The position numbers and the translations under genes are program-made. 64,000 nt of DNA from Hwanghaeella grinnelliae (GTDB lineage Bacteria > Pseudomonadota > Alphaproteobacteria > UBA8366 > Aestuariispiraceae): NCBI RefSeq assembly GCF_004005845.1, contig NZ_SADE01000004.1:620001-684000 (forward strand). The letters are read 5' to 3'. The notes beneath the pieces were generated by a model that had not been told where the DNA came from, did not search any database, and worked only from the letters and a program-made list of their open reading frames with translations. The stretch's first letter is position 1. Each line of letters opens with the position of its first letter. Shown piece by piece: positions 1 to 8,141 of the stretch.

Positions 1-1
1 C

Positions 2-817
2 GGTGGCAGCTGGGTGGAAGAGTCGTCCATGCGGTACGTCATCACCAAAGTCTATACGATCGGAAAGCTTGGCTATTTCAATCAGGTGCTGTTGGAAAGG
101 GGATGGACCCTTTTATGCTATGCCGCGATTGTCATCGTCTATCTGAAGAACATTAGGGCATTGGGCAGTGCATTGGCGCTGTGTTTGCTATTGATCGCAC
201 TGGCGCCGACGGCAATGTATCTTGTGACACTCTTGGGACCGAACATCTTTCTGCCAAGATTGATTGTGCCACTGGCCTTGCCGTTTGGTGTACTAATCGC
301 CGTTGCGCTCGTCAAAGTGCGCAACAGATACATCGTCACGGTTTTATGTTGTGTCACAGCCGCTTCATTCGCTTTCCAGACCTACACTATGATGACCGAA
401 AAACCGAAGGGCGGGTATTTGCGGGCATTTTCTGTCGCCCTCCAGGAAGAGTATCAGCCGGACGATCTACTGCTGTTCTTGCCGAATTCCCTGGAACTCC
501 CCCTGTCCTTGGAATTGGAAGGCCTGAAAAACGTGCCGCTAGACAGGGTAGCTTTGCCCCATGTCTATCCTGCGATCGGTGTGTCGGATTTTTATCCCGC
601 AGGCACGCCGTCAGTACCCGGACTGACTGAAGCAGACGCGGACTTGATCAAGGCCAAGATCGGGTCGCGGAACCGGGTTCTCGTCTTGACGCGTATTGAG
701 GAATTGTTCGATCCGTCTTCCGTCCTACGGCGGACTTTGGCGGAAATGGGTTTCCGGTCCGTGCGGTCGATGGGCGAGGACATCAGGCCGCTCTACTTTG
801 ATGTTTATGAGCGATGA
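2..817 (+). CDS. C-terminal part of a polytopic membrane protein (5' truncated)
   Basis: The reading frame is already open at the first bases of the window, so the true start lies upstream and only the C-terminal part (about 270 residues) is visible. It begins with three or four hydrophobic membrane segments (about residues 30-120) and ends in a soluble domain of about 140 residues. This layout, transmembrane helices followed by an extracytoplasmic C-terminal domain, is common in GT-C (dolichyl-phosphate-mannose/ArnT-like) glycosyltransferases, but the catalytic N-terminus is not in the window. It sits beside polysaccharide genes, convergent with a GT2 gene 19 bases away, so a role in surface glycan assembly is plausible. 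The family call is only an inference from topology and context. Confidence 0.7.
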   Translation, partial: GGSWVEESSMRYVITKVYTIGKLGYFNQVLLERGWTLLCYAAIVIVYLKNIRALGSALALCLLLIALAPTAMYLVTLLGPNIFLPRLIVPLALPFGVLIAVALVKVRNRYIVTVLCCVTAASFAFQTYTMMTEKPKGGYLRAFSVALQEEYQPDDLLLFLPNSLELPLSLELEGLKNVPLDRVALPHVYPAIGVSDFYPAGTPSVPGLTEADADLIKAKIGSRNRVLVLTRIEELFDPSSVLRRTLAEMGFRSVRSMGEDIRPLYFDVYER

Positions 818-836
818 GGTCGCGGCAGCAGCAGGT

Positions 837-1811
837 CTATCCGGACCGTTTGAATTTGTCCCGCTGTTTGAAAACCAAGCGATATCCGTAGGTTCCCAGC
901 ACCAAGGCGGCTAATACTTTGATGGAGGAAGTCAGCCGGTTGGGGTGGTATTTCAAGGATGCAAACAGGCTTTTGATCCAGTTTTTGCTGCCGGACAGTC
1001 TCTCCAGGTAGGATTTCTCGAACAGAACGCCGCTGAAGCTTTTCCCGATCACATCCCGTTGCGACGGCGTCAGGTCCATCGCGAGCAATTCCATCAGGCT
1101 CTGCTCAATATAGGAAAGGGCCTTCAGCCGGTTTTCGTCGTATAGATTGATCAGGGCGTCCTGATCACCGGCAAGCCGACGGACTTGGGCAAGGACATCC
1201 CCGGTGAAAACCCATGCGCCCTTGATCGCCAGTTTCGAAAAGAGCGATGTGTCTTCATGAACCGGCATGTCTTCGGAGAAGCCGCCAAGGGCCAAGGTCT
1301 CTTCTATCCTGACCGCAGTGACGCTTGGGAATATGCCCGGCAGGATCAGGCCGACTGCATCCGGTATTTGGGTGCCTGAAGCCTCGTCGAAGGACAGGTT
1401 GCGAAGTTCGAACAGACGCTTCGAATACCCGTCGCCGGTCAACCGCATGTCACCGGTATGGGCGACCGTATTTTGCCCGGCAACGGCAAGGTCCCGGTGC
1501 AGGGAAGCCATTCGGCCCGGCAGCCACAAATCATCAGAATCCAGGAATGCGGCCCAGCTGCTATCGGCCAGCTTGATCCCGGCGTTCCGCGCCGCCGCCA
1601 CACCCGCATTCTTTTGGCGGAGGACCTTGATTCGGTCGCCATAGGCCGCAAGCACCGTCGCCGTATCATCGGTGGACCCGTCATCGACGATGATGACTTC
1701 GTCTGCGGGCGGGTCCTGGTTCAAGACGCTGTCGATCGCATCCCCCACGCAATGGGCGCGGTTATAGGTCGGAATGATAACCGCGACAGTGACTCCGCTC
1801 TCAGGCTGCAT
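837..1811 (-). CDS. Family 2 glycosyltransferase
   Basis: A 324-residue protein with a GT-A fold N-terminus. The segment VAVIIPTYNRA near residue 9 is the typical GT2 opening. VDDGSTDDT near residue 42 is the nucleotide-sugar binding acidic motif, and FLDSDDLW near residue 90 contains the DxD metal-binding motif. The C-terminal third is helical and of lower complexity, without an obvious membrane bundle, so it is probably a cytoplasmic or membrane-associated enzyme adding a sugar to a lipid-linked polysaccharide intermediate. It lies in the same direction as the flippase gene 54 bases upstream, so the two are probably co-transcribed. Donor and acceptor sugars cannot be read from the sequence. 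Confidence 0.92.
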   Translation of the reverse strand: MQPESGVTVAVIIPTYNRAHCVGDAIDSVLNQDPPADEVIIVDDGSTDDTATVLAAYGDRIKVLRQKNAGVAAARNAGIKLADSSWAAFLDSDDLWLPGRMASLHRDLAVAGQNTVAHTGDMRLTGDGYSKRLFELRNLSFDEASGTQIPDAVGLILPGIFPSVTAVRIEETLALGGFSEDMPVHEDTSLFSKLAIKGAWVFTGDVLAQVRRLAGDQDALINLYDENRLKALSYIEQSLMELLAMDLTPSQRDVIGKSFSGVLFEKSYLERLSGSKNWIKSLFASLKYHPNRLTSSIKVLAALVLGTYGYRLVFKQRDKFKRSG

Positions 1812-1865
1812 GTTTCGGTGTTCTCTTGGAGTTAGTCGTTGAACGTAAACTATTGGGAAGACGCA

Positions 1866-3362
1866 TCAGTCCACCGGCCATCCCAGTTTACGGTAGATTG
1901 TTGCAACTTTTGTAACAAGGCGTCCATGGGAGCCGATTTTCTCCAGCACGATGTGGACGCCGACAAAACCGGTCGCAAACCCCAGGACCAGGGACAGGAT
2001 GCCACCGATCAGGGGAAATTCCGGCGCAAAAACCAGCAGACCGCCGGCAAGCGCGGCATGCAAGCAGAACAGGACCAAGGTTAGTTTTTGCCATTTGAAA
2101 CGGTGAAGTTTCCTGGCCAGCAATGTGACAACGAAAAAATCCACCGTTTGGGCGATGACGAAGGCGATGCCGGTCACTTTCAAACCGAATTCCGACAAGC
2201 CGTACCAAACGAGAAGAAGGAAGATGGCATTGAAGATCAGCGTTGTCGTCAGGCTGACGCGCGGTTGTCCGGCAGCGATAAACACGAATCCCAAACTCCA
2301 GGTCGCCAGTTTCAGCACATTGCCGAACATTTGCCACTGAAGGATGGTCACGGCTTCTCCGAATTCGGAGGAGTAGAGCAGGCTGATGAGCCATGGGGCG
2401 CAGCCGATCAGTGACAGGATGAGCGGCCCTCCAAGGGCCAAGGCAAGCTGCAATTGGTCGTTCATCAACTGGACGGCCTTCTCGCGCTCGCGAACGATCT
2501 CGGTGAGGCGGGGGAAATAGTCCGCCCCCATCGCCTGAAGCAGAAAGCCGATATAGACGGTGCCGACGCTCCAGGCCGCGGCGAAATAGCCCGCGTCTTC
2601 AAGCGACATGTCTTGCGTGATCTTACTGCGCACCAACAGCAAGGTGCCGAACATGGCAAAGCTGCCGACCATGAAGACGACCCCCAAACGGGTCATGGGG
2701 AGCCATACCCGCCAGATATCCCGAAGGCTCATCTGTACCGGCACTGGTTTCGGCAGCCGTCGAATATATACGAAACCGAAGAGAATGCTGAAGACGGGCG
2801 GCAGAAGGATCAACCAAACCAGGCCGGCCTGATCGGCCATGATGACCGCCAAAAGGCCCCCGGCGGTCCCGATCAGGGTGCTCCAGACGGTCACCTTCCC
2901 AAGGTCGCCGATGCGTCGTAACCCCTGAAACAAGGTCGTTTGCGATGTGGCTAACAGGAAAAGCAGCACACCGACCCCGACCAAGCCGACATCGGTCGCA
3001 TGTTTTGCATCGTCGAGGATCCACACGGCCAGTTGTTCGCGCAGGAACCAGATTACCAGCATGGCAATCGCACCTTGGGTGAACAGGGCGCCCAGCAAAA
3101 CCCGCCGGACGCGGGATTGACCTTCGGGACTATCCTTGGCGCCGGCCAGTTCGCGCACGCCGCTGCCGCTCATCCCCAACCCGGCCGCCATGCCCGCGAT
3201 TTCGCGCAGGTTGGTGAGCAAGCTCAACAAACCGATGCCGGCAGGGCCGAGCAGCAGGGCCACGATCTTGGCACGGGCCACGGTGATGATGATGCGCAAC
3301 GCCTGTGCGCTGGCGATGATTGCCATCGACCGCACCAGCCCGCGAAAAGACGAGTCAGACAC
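1866..3362 (-). CDS. Wzx-type oligosaccharide flippase
   Basis: A 498-residue protein made almost entirely of hydrophobic segments (about 12-14), the expected size and topology of the polysaccharide transporter (MOP/MATE-like) superfamily. The N-terminus resembles O-antigen translocases, including a conserved stretch around ALLLGPAGIGLLSLL (residues 35-50) typical of Wzx-like flippases. Such proteins move undecaprenyl-linked repeat units from the cytoplasmic to the periplasmic face of the inner membrane. It lies upstream of the GT2 gene on the same strand. Its presence points to Wzx/Wzy-type assembly here, although a Wzy polymerase and export genes are not in the window. Confidence 0.9.
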   Translation of the reverse strand: MSDSSFRGLVRSMAIIASAQALRIIITVARAKIVALLLGPAGIGLLSLLTNLREIAGMAAGLGMSGSGVRELAGAKDSPEGQSRVRRVLLGALFTQGAIAMLVIWFLREQLAVWILDDAKHATDVGLVGVGVLLFLLATSQTTLFQGLRRIGDLGKVTVWSTLIGTAGGLLAVIMADQAGLVWLILLPPVFSILFGFVYIRRLPKPVPVQMSLRDIWRVWLPMTRLGVVFMVGSFAMFGTLLLVRSKITQDMSLEDAGYFAAAWSVGTVYIGFLLQAMGADYFPRLTEIVREREKAVQLMNDQLQLALALGGPLILSLIGCAPWLISLLYSSEFGEAVTILQWQMFGNVLKLATWSLGFVFIAAGQPRVSLTTTLIFNAIFLLLVWYGLSEFGLKVTGIAFVIAQTVDFFVVTLLARKLHRFKWQKLTLVLFCLHAALAGGLLVFAPEFPLIGGILSLVLGFATGFVGVHIVLEKIGSHGRLVTKVATIYRKLGWPVD

Positions 3363-3552
3363 TCTGTGCCCCCTTAGCGTTACCGGGCGTCCACAATCTC
3401 ACTCTGCCGCAGATATTGCCACCGGCGTTTGCATTGGGCTTGGCCTGTGCGTGTGAGATCCGATGCGGATGGTCCCTGAATGCCGCGCGAATGGAATGGC
3501 ATCGCCCAGATTACGGTCAAATGGGCGCGTTGAGACCGAAAACTCGTTCCGT

Positions 3553-4533
3553 CTATCGTGATGCAAGCTTGGAGACAATGGACGCACGAACTTTTTCGCT
3601 CGGCACTTCGACAATCGCATAGAAAATGCATGTCGATAAGGCGACGACCGCCAGCACGATGACTTTGTCCGGTGTCTGGATCGGGCCGAAAAAATGTCCG
3701 TATAGGGCGATGACCGGCCAGTGGGTGATATAGAGCGCGTAGGACATATTGCCGAAATGCCGGTCCAGTTTGCCGCTCTTCTGGGCCACGTTGAACGCGT
3801 AGAATGGAATTAGCGCGGCTGTCCAGATCATGCCGAACCAATCCTCGTTGAAGGGGGAAACCGTGTTCTTCAGCAGCAGGGGCCTCGCGTCGTCCCAGAT
3901 CCACACGACGACCCCAATAAGAATGAAGCCGGCGGCTGAGGCATAGGCCGTCGTTTTCCTCGGTTTCCAATCCGTCAAATATATCGCTATCCCGATCGCG
4001 AATGACGGAAGGTACATGAAGACGGTCCAAATACCGACGTTCATCTGCAGGTACCATCCGACCGGCAGTAAGAAAATACTAAGCAAAATGATCGCGGCAC
4101 TGGCCCTTGCCGGGGACCGCAGACTGGCCGCAAGACCGGCGATCAACGGCACCAGCAGGTAGAACTGAAGCTCAAGGTCCAGAGACCATGAAACGCCTAG
4201 GACGTCGTTCTGCGTCGTCGCTATACCAAAAATAGGCAAACCGAGAAGTTTGCTGTAGTCGGGGTCTCCGTATGTCCAAGCGAATATACAAAAAAATGTC
4301 ACGTATGCCGCAAAGAAAGGCAAAAATATCCGCAGTGCGCGCGACGTGTAAAAGACTGTCACATCACTGTATTTGGAGTATTTCTCCACATACATTCTAG
4401 TGACCCAGTAGCCGCTTAACGCAAAGAAGGCGAACACGGCCGGCCGGCCAATTTCCAGGTTTGAAAGATGACTGATAACGACTAGACCTGCTAGAAGGAG
4501 CCTGAAAATACCGGGCGGTATTGAGGGAATCAT
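3553..4533 (-). CDS. Acyltransferase 3 family membrane protein
   Basis: A 326-residue polytopic protein with about ten hydrophobic segments. The N-terminus carries the acyltransferase-3 pattern: FALSGYWVTRMY near residue 40 and SRALRIFLPFFAAY near residue 65. A late YALYITHWPVIALYG (about residue 270) matches the conserved final helices. Members transfer O-acyl (often acetyl) groups to cell-surface carbohydrates across the inner membrane. It is shorter than typical 350-400-residue members and starts directly in a helix. It is divergent from the adenylation-carrier fusion whose likely start lies about 60 bases away, so the two share a promoter region. Both contain acyltransferase-3 modules, suggesting the local polysaccharide is acylated. 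Confidence 0.88.
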   Translation of the reverse strand: MIPSIPPGIFRLLLAGLVVISHLSNLEIGRPAVFAFFALSGYWVTRMYVEKYSKYSDVTVFYTSRALRIFLPFFAAYVTFFCIFAWTYGDPDYSKLLGLPIFGIATTQNDVLGVSWSLDLELQFYLLVPLIAGLAASLRSPARASAAIILLSIFLLPVGWYLQMNVGIWTVFMYLPSFAIGIAIYLTDWKPRKTTAYASAAGFILIGVVVWIWDDARPLLLKNTVSPFNEDWFGMIWTAALIPFYAFNVAQKSGKLDRHFGNMSYALYITHWPVIALYGHFFGPIQTPDKVIVLAVVALSTCIFYAIVEVPSEKVRASIVSKLASR

Positions 4534-4592
4534 ATTCGGTCGGCTTACAATCGGGTCGTTGGAGAAGTACTCATCGCTTGTCGGGGGACAGA

Positions 4593-7184
4593 ATGCCAGA
4601 TTATTTCTGGGACAATCTAGAAAATTATTCTGACAACCTGGCCGTAGTCTCCAGCGACGGGCAGGGGCATTCCTATGCAGATTTAGATAAAGCGGCGAAG
4701 GTATTTGCCGAAGAGCATTTCGCCGGTCTGGAATACCGGCCGCTTGTCTTGCTGGAAACCGCCAACAGTTTTCCCGTCATTGCTGCGTATATAGCTGTAC
4801 TTCAGGCGCGCTATCCCGTCATATTGCTGGCGCCCGGTGCTATCGCGGAAGACTCGCGGATAGCGGATACCTACCAGCCGAACATCGTGATCCGAAGCAA
4901 TGGCGATGCGGTGACGGTGACCCGCACGGACGCGCCGCCGGTCGATATGCATCCCGAACTGGCCGTTCTGCTCTCCACATCCGGAACCACGGGCGCGCCG
5001 AAACTGGTGCGCCTGTCGCGGGACAACATCCAGTCGAACGCGGAATCAATTGCGCAATATCTGGAGCTGGACGAGACCGAACGTGCCATCACGACGCTTT
5101 CCTTCCATTACTCCTACGGGATGTCGGTCGTGCACACGCATCTTTCGATCGGGGCGGCCCTCGTCACGACGGATTCATCGGTAATCGAGGACGCGTTCTG
5201 GGCTTGCGCGGACCGCCACGGCGTTACCTCGCTGGCATTGGTTCCGTTCCAGTTCGAGCTTCTGGAAAGAAGCGGGTTTGAAAACCGAAGACTTCCCTCC
5301 CTCAGATACATCACTCAGGCCGGCGGAAAGCTTGCCGAACCCTTCGTACGCCGATTTGCAGAACTGGGTAAGCGGGACGGCTGGCGTCTTTTTATCATGT
5401 ACGGCCAAACCGAAGCATCGCCGCGCATGGCCTATCTGCCGCCCGAGGATTTGGATGAATGGGCGTTCAGTATCGGGCGGGCCGTCCCTGGCGGTAAATT
5501 CCACCTTCTGGCGGACGACGGATCGCCCATTGATGTCCCCAACAAGACAGGCGAACTGATCTACGAAGGTCCCAATGTGATGCTCGGCTATGCCGAGGAA
5601 AGGGGGGATCTGGCCGCGCCGTCAGGTCCGTCCGAACTCCATACCGGCGACATGGCTGAAATGTTGGAAAATGGATATTTCCGTATCGTCGGAAGGCTGA
5701 AGCGGTTCATCAAGATCTTCGGCCTCAGGGTCAGCCTGGATGAAGCCGAAGACTTTCTGCGCCGGGAAGGGTTCACCGCCTGGTGCGCGGGCAAGGACGA
5801 GCGCCTGGTCGTCTTTTTGACGGAGATGGACCGGGCGGACCGGGCCAAGGAGATGCTGGTTGAGCGCTATCACCTGACCGAAAGCGTCGTCTTCGTGACC
5901 CAAATCGATGCACCGCCGCTGCTGTCGTCCGGCAAGGTGGACTACAGCACTCTGACGGCCCATGCGAATGCGCTAGAGGCCGCCCAAGGCCACGGCCAAG
6001 GGGCAAGGGTCGAGGATACCGGCGGTGTCGCCGCAAGCCTCAAACGAGCAATGCGCGTTGCCAAAATCGACGCCGACCGCAGCTTTCTAGAGCATGGCAG
6101 CGACAGCCTCGGCTATGTCGAGGTGCAAATGGTCCTGACAGAGCTTCTCGGTTCTCCCCCGCCGAACTGGGAAGAAATGCCTATGGGCGAATTGATTGCC
6201 CTGTGTAAGTCGGGGCCGGATCGCGGAAGCAGGGCGTTGCAAACGCGGCTTCAATGGACGCCGACGAGCTTGATGCTCAGACTCGTCGCGATCACCGCCG
6301 TAATCTTGCTGCATAGCACCAGTTTGCCGGTCTCTGGCGGCGGTTACCTTCTGATCATGCTCGTCGGCGCATCGCTAGGGCGCTTCCAATTCGAGCAGTT
6401 GAAGGCAGGCAAGGTCGGCCAAGTGATCGGCACGCAGCTGACAGACATCGTGATTTGGTACTTCTTTCTGATTATCGGTGTCAGCTTTCTCTTCAATCCG
6501 GTGAATCTGAGCTGGTTTCTGCTTCTGGGGAATTTTGATCCGGCGGTGAAGCCGGATGGAATCTCGCCCTATTGGTTTGTGTGTTTCTATGCCCAGGCGA
6601 TCCTTATCGTCTGCGCCTTTTTCCTGGTGCCGGGGCTTCGGCAAACCATCGCCGGGCGGCCGTTCCTTTCCGGGCTTGTTGGCGTAGGCGCGTTTTCCGC
6701 GCTTGCCATTCTCATCGATCCGTCTTCTACGGCGACCGGTGGCATCCAGATCCGTCATCCATTGTTCGCGATGCAACTGGTACTGCTCGGTTGGACTATT
6801 CAGTTCTCCAAGACCCTGCTTGAGAAACAGATCATTTCAGTCGTCTTGATCGCGAATGCGCTATTGATCTGGTTCTATGGAACGACAGTCCTGCCGTTTA
6901 TCATCCTCGGCGGGTTGCTTATGATTTGGCTACCCACGGTCGAGCTGCCACAAATGCTGTCACGGTTGGTATTCTTTCTGGGTGCAAACACCATGTATTT
7001 CTACCTGTTGCACCCGGTAATGCTTTACCTCGTGGAGAAGAATTTCAGGTTGAAGGAACTCGATTTGTTCCTGTTTACGATTGCTTTTACTTTGCCTGTA
7101 TCGATCGGATGCCGGATTATCGCGCAGCGGTTCCTAAGTGTTTCCAAGCAACTGCTGTTTTCGCGCCGGGGGGCGGCGAATTGA
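4593..7184 (+). CDS. Adenylation-carrier-acyltransferase-3 fusion protein
   Basis: A three-module protein of 863 residues from the ATG at 4593, chosen because GGGGGACAG precedes it; an upstream in-frame ATG at 4521 overlaps the divergent gene. Residues 1-460 are an ANL-family adenylation domain: phosphate-binding loop STSGTTGAPK (about 128-137), YGQTEASPRM (270-279), ELHTGD (348-353), a hinge region GRLKRFIKIFGLRVSLDEAE and a terminal lysine in LSSGKVDY (about 448). Residues 475-545 are an acyl-carrier domain whose FLEHGSDSLG supplies Ser505 for phosphopantetheine. Residues 560-863 form a hydrophobic domain resembling acyltransferase 3, with an early His in ILLHS and a late YFYLLHPVMLYLV. Inferred role: activate a carboxylic acid, load it on its own carrier and pass it to a membrane transferase that decorates the polysaccharide. 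The substrate is unknown. Confidence 0.88.
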   Translation: MPDYFWDNLENYSDNLAVVSSDGQGHSYADLDKAAKVFAEEHFAGLEYRPLVLLETANSFPVIAAYIAVLQARYPVILLAPGAIAEDSRIADTYQPNIVIRSNGDAVTVTRTDAPPVDMHPELAVLLSTSGTTGAPKLVRLSRDNIQSNAESIAQYLELDETERAITTLSFHYSYGMSVVHTHLSIGAALVTTDSSVIEDAFWACADRHGVTSLALVPFQFELLERSGFENRRLPSLRYITQAGGKLAEPFVRRFAELGKRDGWRLFIMYGQTEASPRMAYLPPEDLDEWAFSIGRAVPGGKFHLLADDGSPIDVPNKTGELIYEGPNVMLGYAEERGDLAAPSGPSELHTGDMAEMLENGYFRIVGRLKRFIKIFGLRVSLDEAEDFLRREGFTAWCAGKDERLVVFLTEMDRADRAKEMLVERYHLTESVVFVTQIDAPPLLSSGKVDYSTLTAHANALEAAQGHGQGARVEDTGGVAASLKRAMRVAKIDADRSFLEHGSDSLGYVEVQMVLTELLGSPPPNWEEMPMGELIALCKSGPDRGSRALQTRLQWTPTSLMLRLVAITAVILLHSTSLPVSGGGYLLIMLVGASLGRFQFEQLKAGKVGQVIGTQLTDIVIWYFFLIIGVSFLFNPVNLSWFLLLGNFDPAVKPDGISPYWFVCFYAQAILIVCAFFLVPGLRQTIAGRPFLSGLVGVGAFSALAILIDPSSTATGGIQIRHPLFAMQLVLLGWTIQFSKTLLEKQIISVVLIANALLIWFYGTTVLPFIILGGLLMIWLPTVELPQMLSRLVFFLGANTMYFYLLHPVMLYLVEKNFRLKELDLFLFTIAFTLPVSIGCRIIAQRFLSVSKQLLFSRRGAAN

Positions 7185-7221
7185 CGGATTTCCGAAGGAA
7201 TGTGAGCCGGGGGACAGGTGT

Positions 7222-7671
7222 GTGACTAAGAAGATTTTAGCGGTCGCGTCGGGCGGTGGACATTGGCAACAACTGATGTTGATGCGTCGAGCCTTCGAGG
7301 GGAATGACGTGCGCTTCATCACCACTTTGCCTGGGCTGCCGGAGCAGTTCGATGCGCATCCCGCGGCGATCGTGCGTGACTGCAATCGGAATGAACGGGT
7401 GAAATCCTTCCTGTCGCTGCTGGCGATTACCTGGCAGATACTAAAGTTTCGTCCGGATGTAATCATTTCAACGGGTGCCTTGCCCGGGGTGATGGCCCTT
7501 GCGGTCGGCCGTCTTTTCGGTGCCCGAACGATTTGGGTCGACTCCATCGCGAATGCTGAAGAAATGTCGATGTCCGGAAGGCTGGCACGACGTTTTGCCC
7601 ATCTTTGGCTCAGCCAATGGGACCATGTGGCGAAGGATGCGGGCGCTGAGTATGCGGGGGCCGTACTGTGA
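7222..7671 (+). CDS. pssD: PssD/Alg14-like glycosyltransferase subunit
   Basis: A 149-residue protein opening with a P-loop-like ILAVASGGGHWQQLMLM, the signature of the Alg14/PssD/EpsE membrane-recruiting half of a two-part GT-B glycosyltransferase. STGALPGVMALAVGRLFGARTIWVDSIANAEE (two halves around residues 85-115) is the conserved C-terminal region. The GTG at 7222 was chosen because GCCGGGGGACAGG precedes it and earlier starts would overlap the upstream gene. Its stop overlaps the start of the next gene, giving translational coupling of the two subunits. In rhizobia the PssD/PssE pair adds a glucuronic acid to the lipid-linked intermediate; the sugar here is not determined. Confidence 0.85.
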   Translation: MTKKILAVASGGGHWQQLMLMRRAFEGNDVRFITTLPGLPEQFDAHPAAIVRDCNRNERVKSFLSLLAITWQILKFRPDVIISTGALPGVMALAVGRLFGARTIWVDSIANAEEMSMSGRLARRFAHLWLSQWDHVAKDAGAEYAGAVL

Positions 7672-8141
7672 TTTTCGTAACCGTGGGTACGCAGCTGGCT
7701 TTTCCCCGCTTGATGGAAGCGTTCGATACCTTGGCCCCGGGATTGGGTGAGGACGTTGTCGCCCAAGTCGGACCCGATACAGGTAATTATCCGAACCTGA
7801 AGGCGCAGCCGAACGTCGCCCCCGATGAATTCGAGCGCCTGTTTACCGAAGCCCGTTTGGTGGTCGGCCATGCCGGGGTAGGGACCATCCTGTCCGCCAA
7901 ACGGTTTGGAACGCCGCTGGTGCTGATGCCGCGGCGGCATGCCTTGGGCGAACATCGCAACGATCATCAACTGGCGACGGCCAAGGCGGTCGAAAAATTA
8001 CCCGGCGTTTACATCGCGTGGCAGGCGGATGAGCTTGCCGGATTGCTTGTCAGGGATGATCTCAAACCGATGACAAATGATGAAAGTCCAACACATTCCG
8101 CCCTTATCGGCCGTTTGAAAGCGTTTATAGAAACCGCTTAA
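7668..8141 (+). CDS. pssE: PssE/Alg13-like glycosyltransferase catalytic subunit
   Basis: A 157-residue protein starting at a GTG that overlaps the stop codon of the preceding subunit (GTGA). It begins IFVTVGTQLAFPRLMEAFD, the hallmark of Alg13/PssE/EpsF proteins. The donor-binding region VVGHAGVGTILSAKRFGTPLVLMPRR (two segments near residues 65-90), followed by LGEHRNDHQLA, is the nucleotide-sugar binding half of a GT-B fold. With the upstream subunit it forms a split membrane-bound glycosyltransferase for exopolysaccharide repeat-unit synthesis. It is probably the last gene of the polysaccharide transcript, since a change of function and a roughly 110-base gap follow. Confidence 0.88.
   Translation: MIFVTVGTQLAFPRLMEAFDTLAPGLGEDVVAQVGPDTGNYPNLKAQPNVAPDEFERLFTEARLVVGHAGVGTILSAKRFGTPLVLMPRRHALGEHRNDHQLATAKAVEKLPGVYIAWQADELAGLLVRDDLKPMTNDESPTHSALIGRLKAFIETA

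Follow-up and report, generated by a model that had tools for sequence, protein, structure and literature searches.

A one-frame adenylation-carrier-acyltransferase-3-like fusion in Hwanghaeella grinnelliae, a putative membrane acyltransferase fed by its own carrier

Can a membrane protein of the acyltransferase-3 (AT3) type receive its acyl group from an activating enzyme and a carrier built into the same chain? The question is raised by one gene in a 64,000-nucleotide stretch of Hwanghaeella grinnelliae DNA (contig NZ_SADE01000004.1, positions 620,001 to 684,000; the whole stretch is called the window and supplies the coordinates used here). An earlier description made from the letters alone, here the sequence-only reading, saw in this gene an ANL adenylation (A) domain, a carrier domain and an AT3-like membrane domain in a single frame, and proposed a donor logic different from that of ordinary AT3 proteins and a role in decorating a polysaccharide. 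Our analysis confirms its observation, since the architecture is real and unusual, and partly supports its interpretation as a whole. The features of the gene are as follows.

4593..7184, + strand: adenylation-carrier-AT3-like fusion protein P0001, 863 aa (open frame, Pfam, 33-row alignment)
4593..5972, + strand: ANL adenylation region, residues 1-460 (Pfam AMP-binding at residues 113-333, 4929-5591, 2.1e-41)
5934..5936, + strand: A10 lysine, Lys448 (Lys in 33/33 fusions)
6024..6227, + strand: carrier domain, about residues 478-545, bounds approximate (aligned with PP-binding regions of relatives)
6105..6107, + strand: phosphopantetheine serine, Ser505 (Ser in 33/33 fusions)
6276..7109, + strand: AT3-like membrane domain, residues 562-839 (Pfam Acyl_transf_3, below cut-off)
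6279..6314, + strand: R-X10-H motif of transmembrane helix (TMH) 1, Arg563 and His574 (R 32, K 1; H 33/33)
6582..6584, + strand: Cys664 (Glu in 30/33 fusions, by alignment column count)
7002..7004, + strand: TMH9 tyrosine, Tyr804 (Tyr in 33/33 fusions)

The frame is open already from a TTG at 4521 and stops at 7184; the likely start is the ATG at 4593, which is preceded by GGGGGACAGA. All three domains lie within this one frame. Besides the strong AMP-binding match, the Acyl_transf_3 profile was aligned over nearly its full length (positions 7-323 of 326; 5.6e-06, 26.1 bits against a gathering score of 31). PP-binding was not called by Pfam in the window protein, and the carrier was recognized by alignment: Ser505 stands with the relatives' GGDSL serine in all 33 rows, exactly at the phosphopantetheine position that the sequence-only reading had assigned to it. 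Profile search gave the C-terminal domain to no other family, and the carrier site is present in the homologues. Hydropathy revealed seven clear membrane segments in the C-terminal half, compared with the ten helices of the AT3 fold. A structure predicted for the window protein alone had a mean pLDDT of 40.2 and was rejected as a basis for a fold search.

The residues kept and lost in the AT3-like half carry most of the argument. We aligned 33 fusions, namely the window protein, nine actinobacterial members drawn from plasmid records, 14 from rhizobia or grouping with the rhizobial members (one from a plasmid bearing the label Roseateles) and nine others. Three further copies, L104 (interrupted frame), L090 (broken) and L076 (a near-copy of L075), were excluded, and L086, L096 and L105 were kept with their clearly different A domains and long branches. 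The carrier Ser, the A10 Lys, the R/K-X10-H motif, the TMH2 Gly and the TMH9 Tyr are invariant in all 33. The TMH2 Phe, in contrast, occurs in none (L in 18, M in 15), nor does the first Arg of the RxxR motif that precedes TMH3 (P 16, S 8, T 6, L 2, A 1), and the second Arg is found in 12 of 33, with Asp in its place in the window protein. Both RxxR and FxxxxG, the latter scored by eye, were present in 14/14 ordinary AT3 controls, among them the divergent neighbour in the window. These controls are the whole AT3s among 20 proteins found by searching 19 related genomes; by our reading of their sequences, the other six were dropped as having no whole AT3 in the frame taken (L061, L062) or as OpgC-like without RxxR (L063), MFS-like (L066), exchanger-like (L052) or DUF1624-like (L053).

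In the literature, RxxR is described as essential in OafA (PMC7448272), the TMH2 Phe and RxxR positions as lining the acyl-CoA site of AT3 proteins (PMC12423673), and the 3',5'-ADP head as sitting at the cytosolic mouth of HGSNAT (PMC11357348). Matching the HGSNAT numbers of two of these papers by a shift of 28, which is our own step, would have the TMH2 Phe contact the pantothenate and put the second RxxR Arg at this mouth. Because a carrier arm also contains pantothenate, only the loss of RxxR points to the nucleotide end, and the change of the Phe is neutral. The fusions thus appear to keep the thioester end while losing the RxxR grip near the nucleotide, as an arm tethered to a carrier would allow, and the missing acyl-CoA-site residues fit a carrier-fed rather than a CoA-fed transferase. 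The different donor logic suggested by the sequence-only reading is upheld to this extent. Since RxxR was tested and found absent, we file the domain as AT3-like and not as AT3 proper.

By a slight preference, we read the protein as a self-sufficient transmembrane acyltransferase fed by its own carrier, with a polysaccharide acceptor locally and a role in iron acquisition in relatives. A carboxylic acid, probably other than an alpha-amino acid, would be adenylated by the A domain and loaded onto the phosphopantetheine arm of the protein's own carrier at Ser505. The loaded arm, replacing free acyl-CoA, would enter the AT3-like pore from the cytosolic side, where Arg563, His574 and Tyr804 would hand the acyl group to an acceptor across the membrane. 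In the window's genome, a polysaccharide made with PssD/PssE, either as such or as its lipid-linked unit, would most likely be this acceptor. The gene looks induced by iron starvation in many relatives, and so the acceptor or product there probably helps to acquire iron.

Several observations weigh against this proposal. The AT3 match of the window protein falls under the Pfam cut-off (26.1 versus 31 bits), and a profile alignment of the fusion AT3 half with eight ordinary AT3s by hhalign covers 47 columns only (77% probability, E 2e-05); the same half as a profile gave no match at E<=1 among PDB sequences. The Asp of the DxxR motif is missing at its TMH1 place in the fusions (L, V, I, T, F or H instead). 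The OpgC-like control (L063) likewise lacks RxxR, many alphaproteobacterial members have an Arg one position ahead of the first RxxR Arg, and the TMH2 Phe, by our numbering match, contacts the pantothenate that is present in a carrier arm too. The sole phosphopantetheinyl transferase (PPTase) found in the window's genome, an ACPS-family protein at G000:C1:2146863-2147144 (L067) near lepB- and rnc-like frames, reads to us as AcpS, and the PPTase search of this genome gave no match of Sfp type. In the window copy the near-invariant Glu664 is replaced by Cys, the second RxxR Arg by Asp and Pro622 by Trp, and no IdeR-, RirA-, Fur- or Irr-like box was found at its gene between -200 and +30. Because the near-invariant Glu is lost and the iron boxes are absent, activity of the window copy itself is less sure.

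What acid might be activated is suggested by the A domain. At residues 170-176 the Asp expected for an alpha-amino acid is absent in 30 core members, and HMMER paired Ser174 with the corresponding Asp of gramicidin synthetase, which makes an alpha-amino acid unlikely; the acid is probably of another kind. Among the other three fusions, L105 has an Asp in this region. The best NCBIfam match is TIGR03098, an exosortase A-associated acyl-CoA ligase (165.6 bits of the 592 needed), and DltA is found among the distant matches. A scan of genome contigs also returned 10 distant ANL loci, which were not used. In a quick tree of 40 A domains with midpoint root, 30 fusions form one group (SH-aLRT 93, under the 95 mark), and seven A domains from stand-alone proteins fall outside it, along with the divergent fusions L086, L096 and L105. 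The window protein is the deepest branch of the group, with SH-aLRT 93 for the other 29 and a long end branch of 1.08. The idea that its A domain is closer to the stand-alone A domains was rejected, as it branches with the 29 other fusions.

Two stand-alone A-domain relatives lie in glycan clusters. One (L078, 6535-15064) is in a NeuB cluster with LuxE, LuxC, MBOAT and AlgX-like genes; this resembles a Dlt set split into separate genes, and the small carrier-like frame of the cluster has no Pfam match. The other (L106) belongs to a cluster of glycosyltransferases that also includes a protein annotated as acyl carrier protein. At L105 (5131-9167), where the A domain is of another type, a Condensation-domain gene directly precedes the fusion, which by our reading adjoins transposon-like repeats.

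The fusion is not singular but one of a family across Alphaproteobacteria and Actinomycetota, as judged from sequence comparison, and its recurrence goes beyond chance. The whole protein matched 211 plasmid records at E<=1e-25, with at least 80% of the query length covered in 81, and in every matching record the best identity was below 60%; the best plasmid relative of the adenylation region is a Rhodococcus fusion (47.8% identical). Whole-genome searches found the gene in its own genome alone, that is in 1/14 genomes of the family (E<=1e-30) and 1/43 of the order (E<=1e-60). In the class draw, 10 of 385 genomes matched at E<=1e-60, comprising four fusions (own included) and six A domains without the carrier-AT3 half. 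With the carrier and AT3 half as query, matches were obtained in 8 of 398 genomes of the phylum draw (own included), every one in an open frame of 866-944 aa, and the corresponding half of the Sinorhizobium meliloti member matched 5 of 385 genomes, all five in frames of 866-953 aa. This half is hardly ever met outside long fused frames, and in L086, L096 and L105 it is joined to A domains of a clearly different kind, so carrier and AT3 seem to travel together. Among 21 family members scanned with Pfam at E<=0.001, AMP-binding was called in 21, PP-binding in 14 and Acyl_transf_3 in 12; in L096 the Acyl_transf_3 score, 45.3 bits, is above the gathering score. No relative of the fusion was found in viral contigs, and phage records gave no match at E<=1e-20. 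We found no name for the family, and a literature search by title and abstract returned no A-carrier-AT3 protein, although full texts may still hold one.

Broken or interrupted copies occur in Rhizobium sp. RCAM05350 (L104, 7980-10106) and Neorhizobium galegae (L090, 8774-10885), and the matches in R. bangladeshense and Rhizobium sp. NXC14 are split as well. In Rhizobium sp. Kim5 (L024, 14713-19630), AAA ATPase, YcaO-like and TfuA-like genes follow the fusion.

Contexts were looked at for 31 of the 33 fusions (21 by annotation, nine unannotated ones by the first residues of their frames, and the window). Of the remaining two, L021 was considered for Fbp proteins alone and L096 offered about 1.5 kb of flanks; the search for Fbp proteins left aside L105. 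Genes of an Fe3+ ABC transporter adjoin the fusion by annotation at L019, L020, L022, L088, L089, L098, L099 and L100; at L071 a protein resembling FbpB, which shares 69% identity with its L089 counterpart, brings the total to 9/33 fusions. In the window itself, no FbpA/FbpB-like protein was found at E<=1e-15 among the frames kept. The promoters point the same way. IdeR-like sites scoring at least 15 of 19 against the IdeR consensus were found in eight of nine actinobacterial promoters, the ninth scoring 14, versus 0/138 control genes (four reach 14). The RirA-type box TGA-N9-TCA was present in 12 of 14 rhizobial promoters versus 12 of 191 controls. With close relatives counted once, by our own grouping, the counts are 3/3 lineages for IdeR and 6/8 for RirA (Fisher p ~2e-6 and ~6e-6). 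These counts cover 23 of 32 relatives; six others were viewed without controls, among which L077 alone has TGA-N9-TCA, and L096, L102 and L105 were left out. For L021 and L073 the gene starts were adjusted manually, three Mycolicibacterium loci were scored at the promoter of the fbpA gene that heads the row, and the control genes are frames chosen by length, with false ones among them. PMC8822346 gives TGA-N9-TCA for RirA and reports it in only 5 of 10 RirA peaks.

By gene order, the S. meliloti member (L084) is SMc00592: in strain Ak57, ndk is the third gene after it and uvrC the tenth, and two papers list these as SMc00595 (PMC2912261) and SMc00602 (PMC12542648), respectively. In an array study (PMC2848241), SMc00592 is labelled 'hypothetical, transmembrane' and rises together with iron genes: its values are 1.47 (semisolid/broth, 14 h) and 1.30 (semisolid/solid, 7 h), which resembles the pattern of hmuV and hmuT, with -0.44 and -0.23 at the other two points. 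The authors of the study do not count it among the iron genes. Taken together, the fusion gene looks to be switched on by iron shortage in many relatives, and for the family as a whole the iron link is a better lead than the polysaccharide.

The window copy, by comparison, sits among genes for polysaccharide synthesis.

837..1811, - strand: family 2 glycosyltransferase gene (Pfam Glycos_transf_2)
1866..3362, - strand: polysaccharide flippase-like gene (Pfam Polysacc_synt_3)
3553..4533, - strand: divergent stand-alone AT3 with RxxR, a natural control (Pfam Acyl_transf_3, 105 bits)
4534..4592, no strand: intergenic stretch of 59 bp separating the fusion from the divergent AT3 gene
7222..7671, + strand: pssD-like glycosyltransferase gene (NCBIfam PssD 69.4 bits, below cut-off 110)
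7668..8141, + strand: pssE-like glycosyltransferase gene (Pfam Glyco_tran_28_C 42 bits; NCBIfam PssE 68.2 bits, below cut-off 120)

The likely pssD start at 7222 is 37 bp past the fusion stop, and GGGGGACAG stands immediately 5' of the fusion gene and of pssD alike; because of this shared element and the short gap, fusion, pssD and pssE probably form one operon. A PssD/PssE-like pair adjoins the fusion, as had been described; both NCBIfam scores are below cut-off. Nine proteins were scanned in the upstream stretch L068: one FrhB-like, one polysaccharide pyruvyl transferase, two family 2 glycosyltransferases (GT2), one TPR and one AAA protein, a Wzy_C-like protein below cut-off (29.0 of 31.7 bits), a PTPS_related match just under its own cut-off (26.1 of 26.4) and a ninth without Pfam match. 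No MBOAT or SGNH gene was found among the window neighbours scanned. The proposed polysaccharide role therefore has a local link, in the 37 bp to pssD, the upstream exopolysaccharide-type genes, the flippase and the GT2, but it does not extend to the family: a polysaccharide cluster surrounds the fusion in 1 of the 31 contexts, that of the window, with a single GT4 gene near L102. The pssD gene was found in 1/19 relatives, the genome's own. The polysaccharide role of the window copy is accordingly drawn from the window's neighbourhood alone. A recent foreign island was considered and rejected; the GC content is 0.565 over window positions 1-8141 and 0.595 in the rest, a weak difference, yet pssD was found in no other genome of the 19 relatives.

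The fusion and the oppositely oriented stand-alone AT3 (3553-4533), with starts 59 bp apart, would set two donor types side by side. Both acyltransferases may serve the same polysaccharide.

Other explanations account for parts of these data. The fusion might be a minimal nonribosomal peptide synthetase (NRPS)-like line in which the AT3-like domain couples a small amine or alcohol to the acid on the carrier, giving a secreted metallophore, with the window's polysaccharide neighbourhood incidental. The iron boxes and Fe3+ transporter neighbours, the Condensation-domain gene directly before the L105 fusion and the lack of a constant partner gene in many plasmid loci would suit such a synthase; we nevertheless consider it unlikely, as the catalytic residues of membrane-spanning transfer are kept in 33/33, no other biosynthetic gene constantly adjoins the fusion, and the window copy probably shares an operon with pssD/pssE. 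Acyl decoration of polysaccharides as the role of the whole family is decidedly improbable, even though the window operon and the stand-alone A-domain relatives in glycan clusters (L078, L106) speak for it, given the single polysaccharide cluster in 31 contexts and the iron boxes and transporters in others. Iron-induced acylation of a glycan would reconcile the polysaccharide and iron readings.

It is also rather improbable, at much the same level, that the window copy is decaying or short of one step. The replacements at Glu664 (Cys), the second RxxR Arg (Asp) and Pro622 (Trp), its long end branch of 1.08 and its presence in 1/14 genomes of the family and 1/43 of the order could be so explained, but the frame is whole, with a ribosome-binding-like site, and Ser505, Lys448, Arg563, His574 and Tyr804 are intact. 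Finally, the A domain might make acyl-CoA or supply other enzymes, with the AT3-like domain using acyl-CoA and the carrier a relic. The AT3 proteins studied so far are described as acyl-CoA users in PMC12423673, and R/K-X10-H is kept; against this, the carrier Ser is kept in 33/33 while RxxR is lost in 33/33, and the carrier-AT3 fusion persists even with another kind of A domain, so that we regard this explanation as very unlikely.

The own-carrier transferase that we prefer invites a wider and more doubtful conjecture, namely that the family is a one-gene iron-starvation system of two phyla, in which an acyl group that binds iron is attached either to the envelope or to a product that is secreted, and that the window copy, as the deepest branch and sister to all the iron-linked fusions, keeps an older polysaccharide role. 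If the proposal holds, a built-in activating enzyme and carrier would free an AT3 from the cytosolic acyl-CoA pool, and a free acid could cross the membrane as an acyl group. The lost acyl-CoA-site residues make the reading of the donor by the pore directly testable through swaps between the fusion and the ordinary AT3 beside it, and the iron link suggests which phenotype to expect in S. meliloti, an organism with easy genetics.

How does the fusion compare with known systems? Described AT3 fusions include those with SGNH and alanine racemase domains in bacteria and with NRF in eukaryotes (PMC9558356, PMC7448272, PMC12423673). Like AT3/TmAT proteins (PF01757; OafA, OafB, OatA), the fusion has the TMH1 R-X10-H, the TMH2 Gly and the TMH9 Tyr and aligns with a near-full Pfam profile; it differs in the preceding A domain and carrier and in missing the TMH2 Phe, RxxR and the DxxR Asp. 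It shares with NRPS modules such as those of linear gramicidin synthetase, its best PDB matches, an A domain followed by a carrier; in its 30 core members, however, the Asp that binds the alpha-amino group is absent, and a membrane acyltransferase replaces the condensation or thioesterase domain. The nearest A-domain kin outside fusions are stand-alone ligases with carriers in glycan clusters, near TIGR03098, where, unlike in the fusion, carrier and acyltransferase are separate genes. Epsilon-poly-L-lysine synthetase (Pls) also joins A and T domains and then membrane parts in one chain, as the fusion does; it is set apart by its greater length and by a membrane part that is not known to be of AT3 type. 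In the Dlt system (DltA-DltC-DltB-DltD), an ANL enzyme activates the acid, a carrier is loaded and a membrane acyltransferase passes the acyl group across the membrane. The Dlt analogy drawn by the sequence-only reading holds for this logic but not for the substrate, which in the core members is probably not an alpha-amino acid, there being no Asp at 170-176; and the fusion, with no DltD and an AT3-like in place of an MBOAT domain, combines activation, carriage and putative transfer in one chain.

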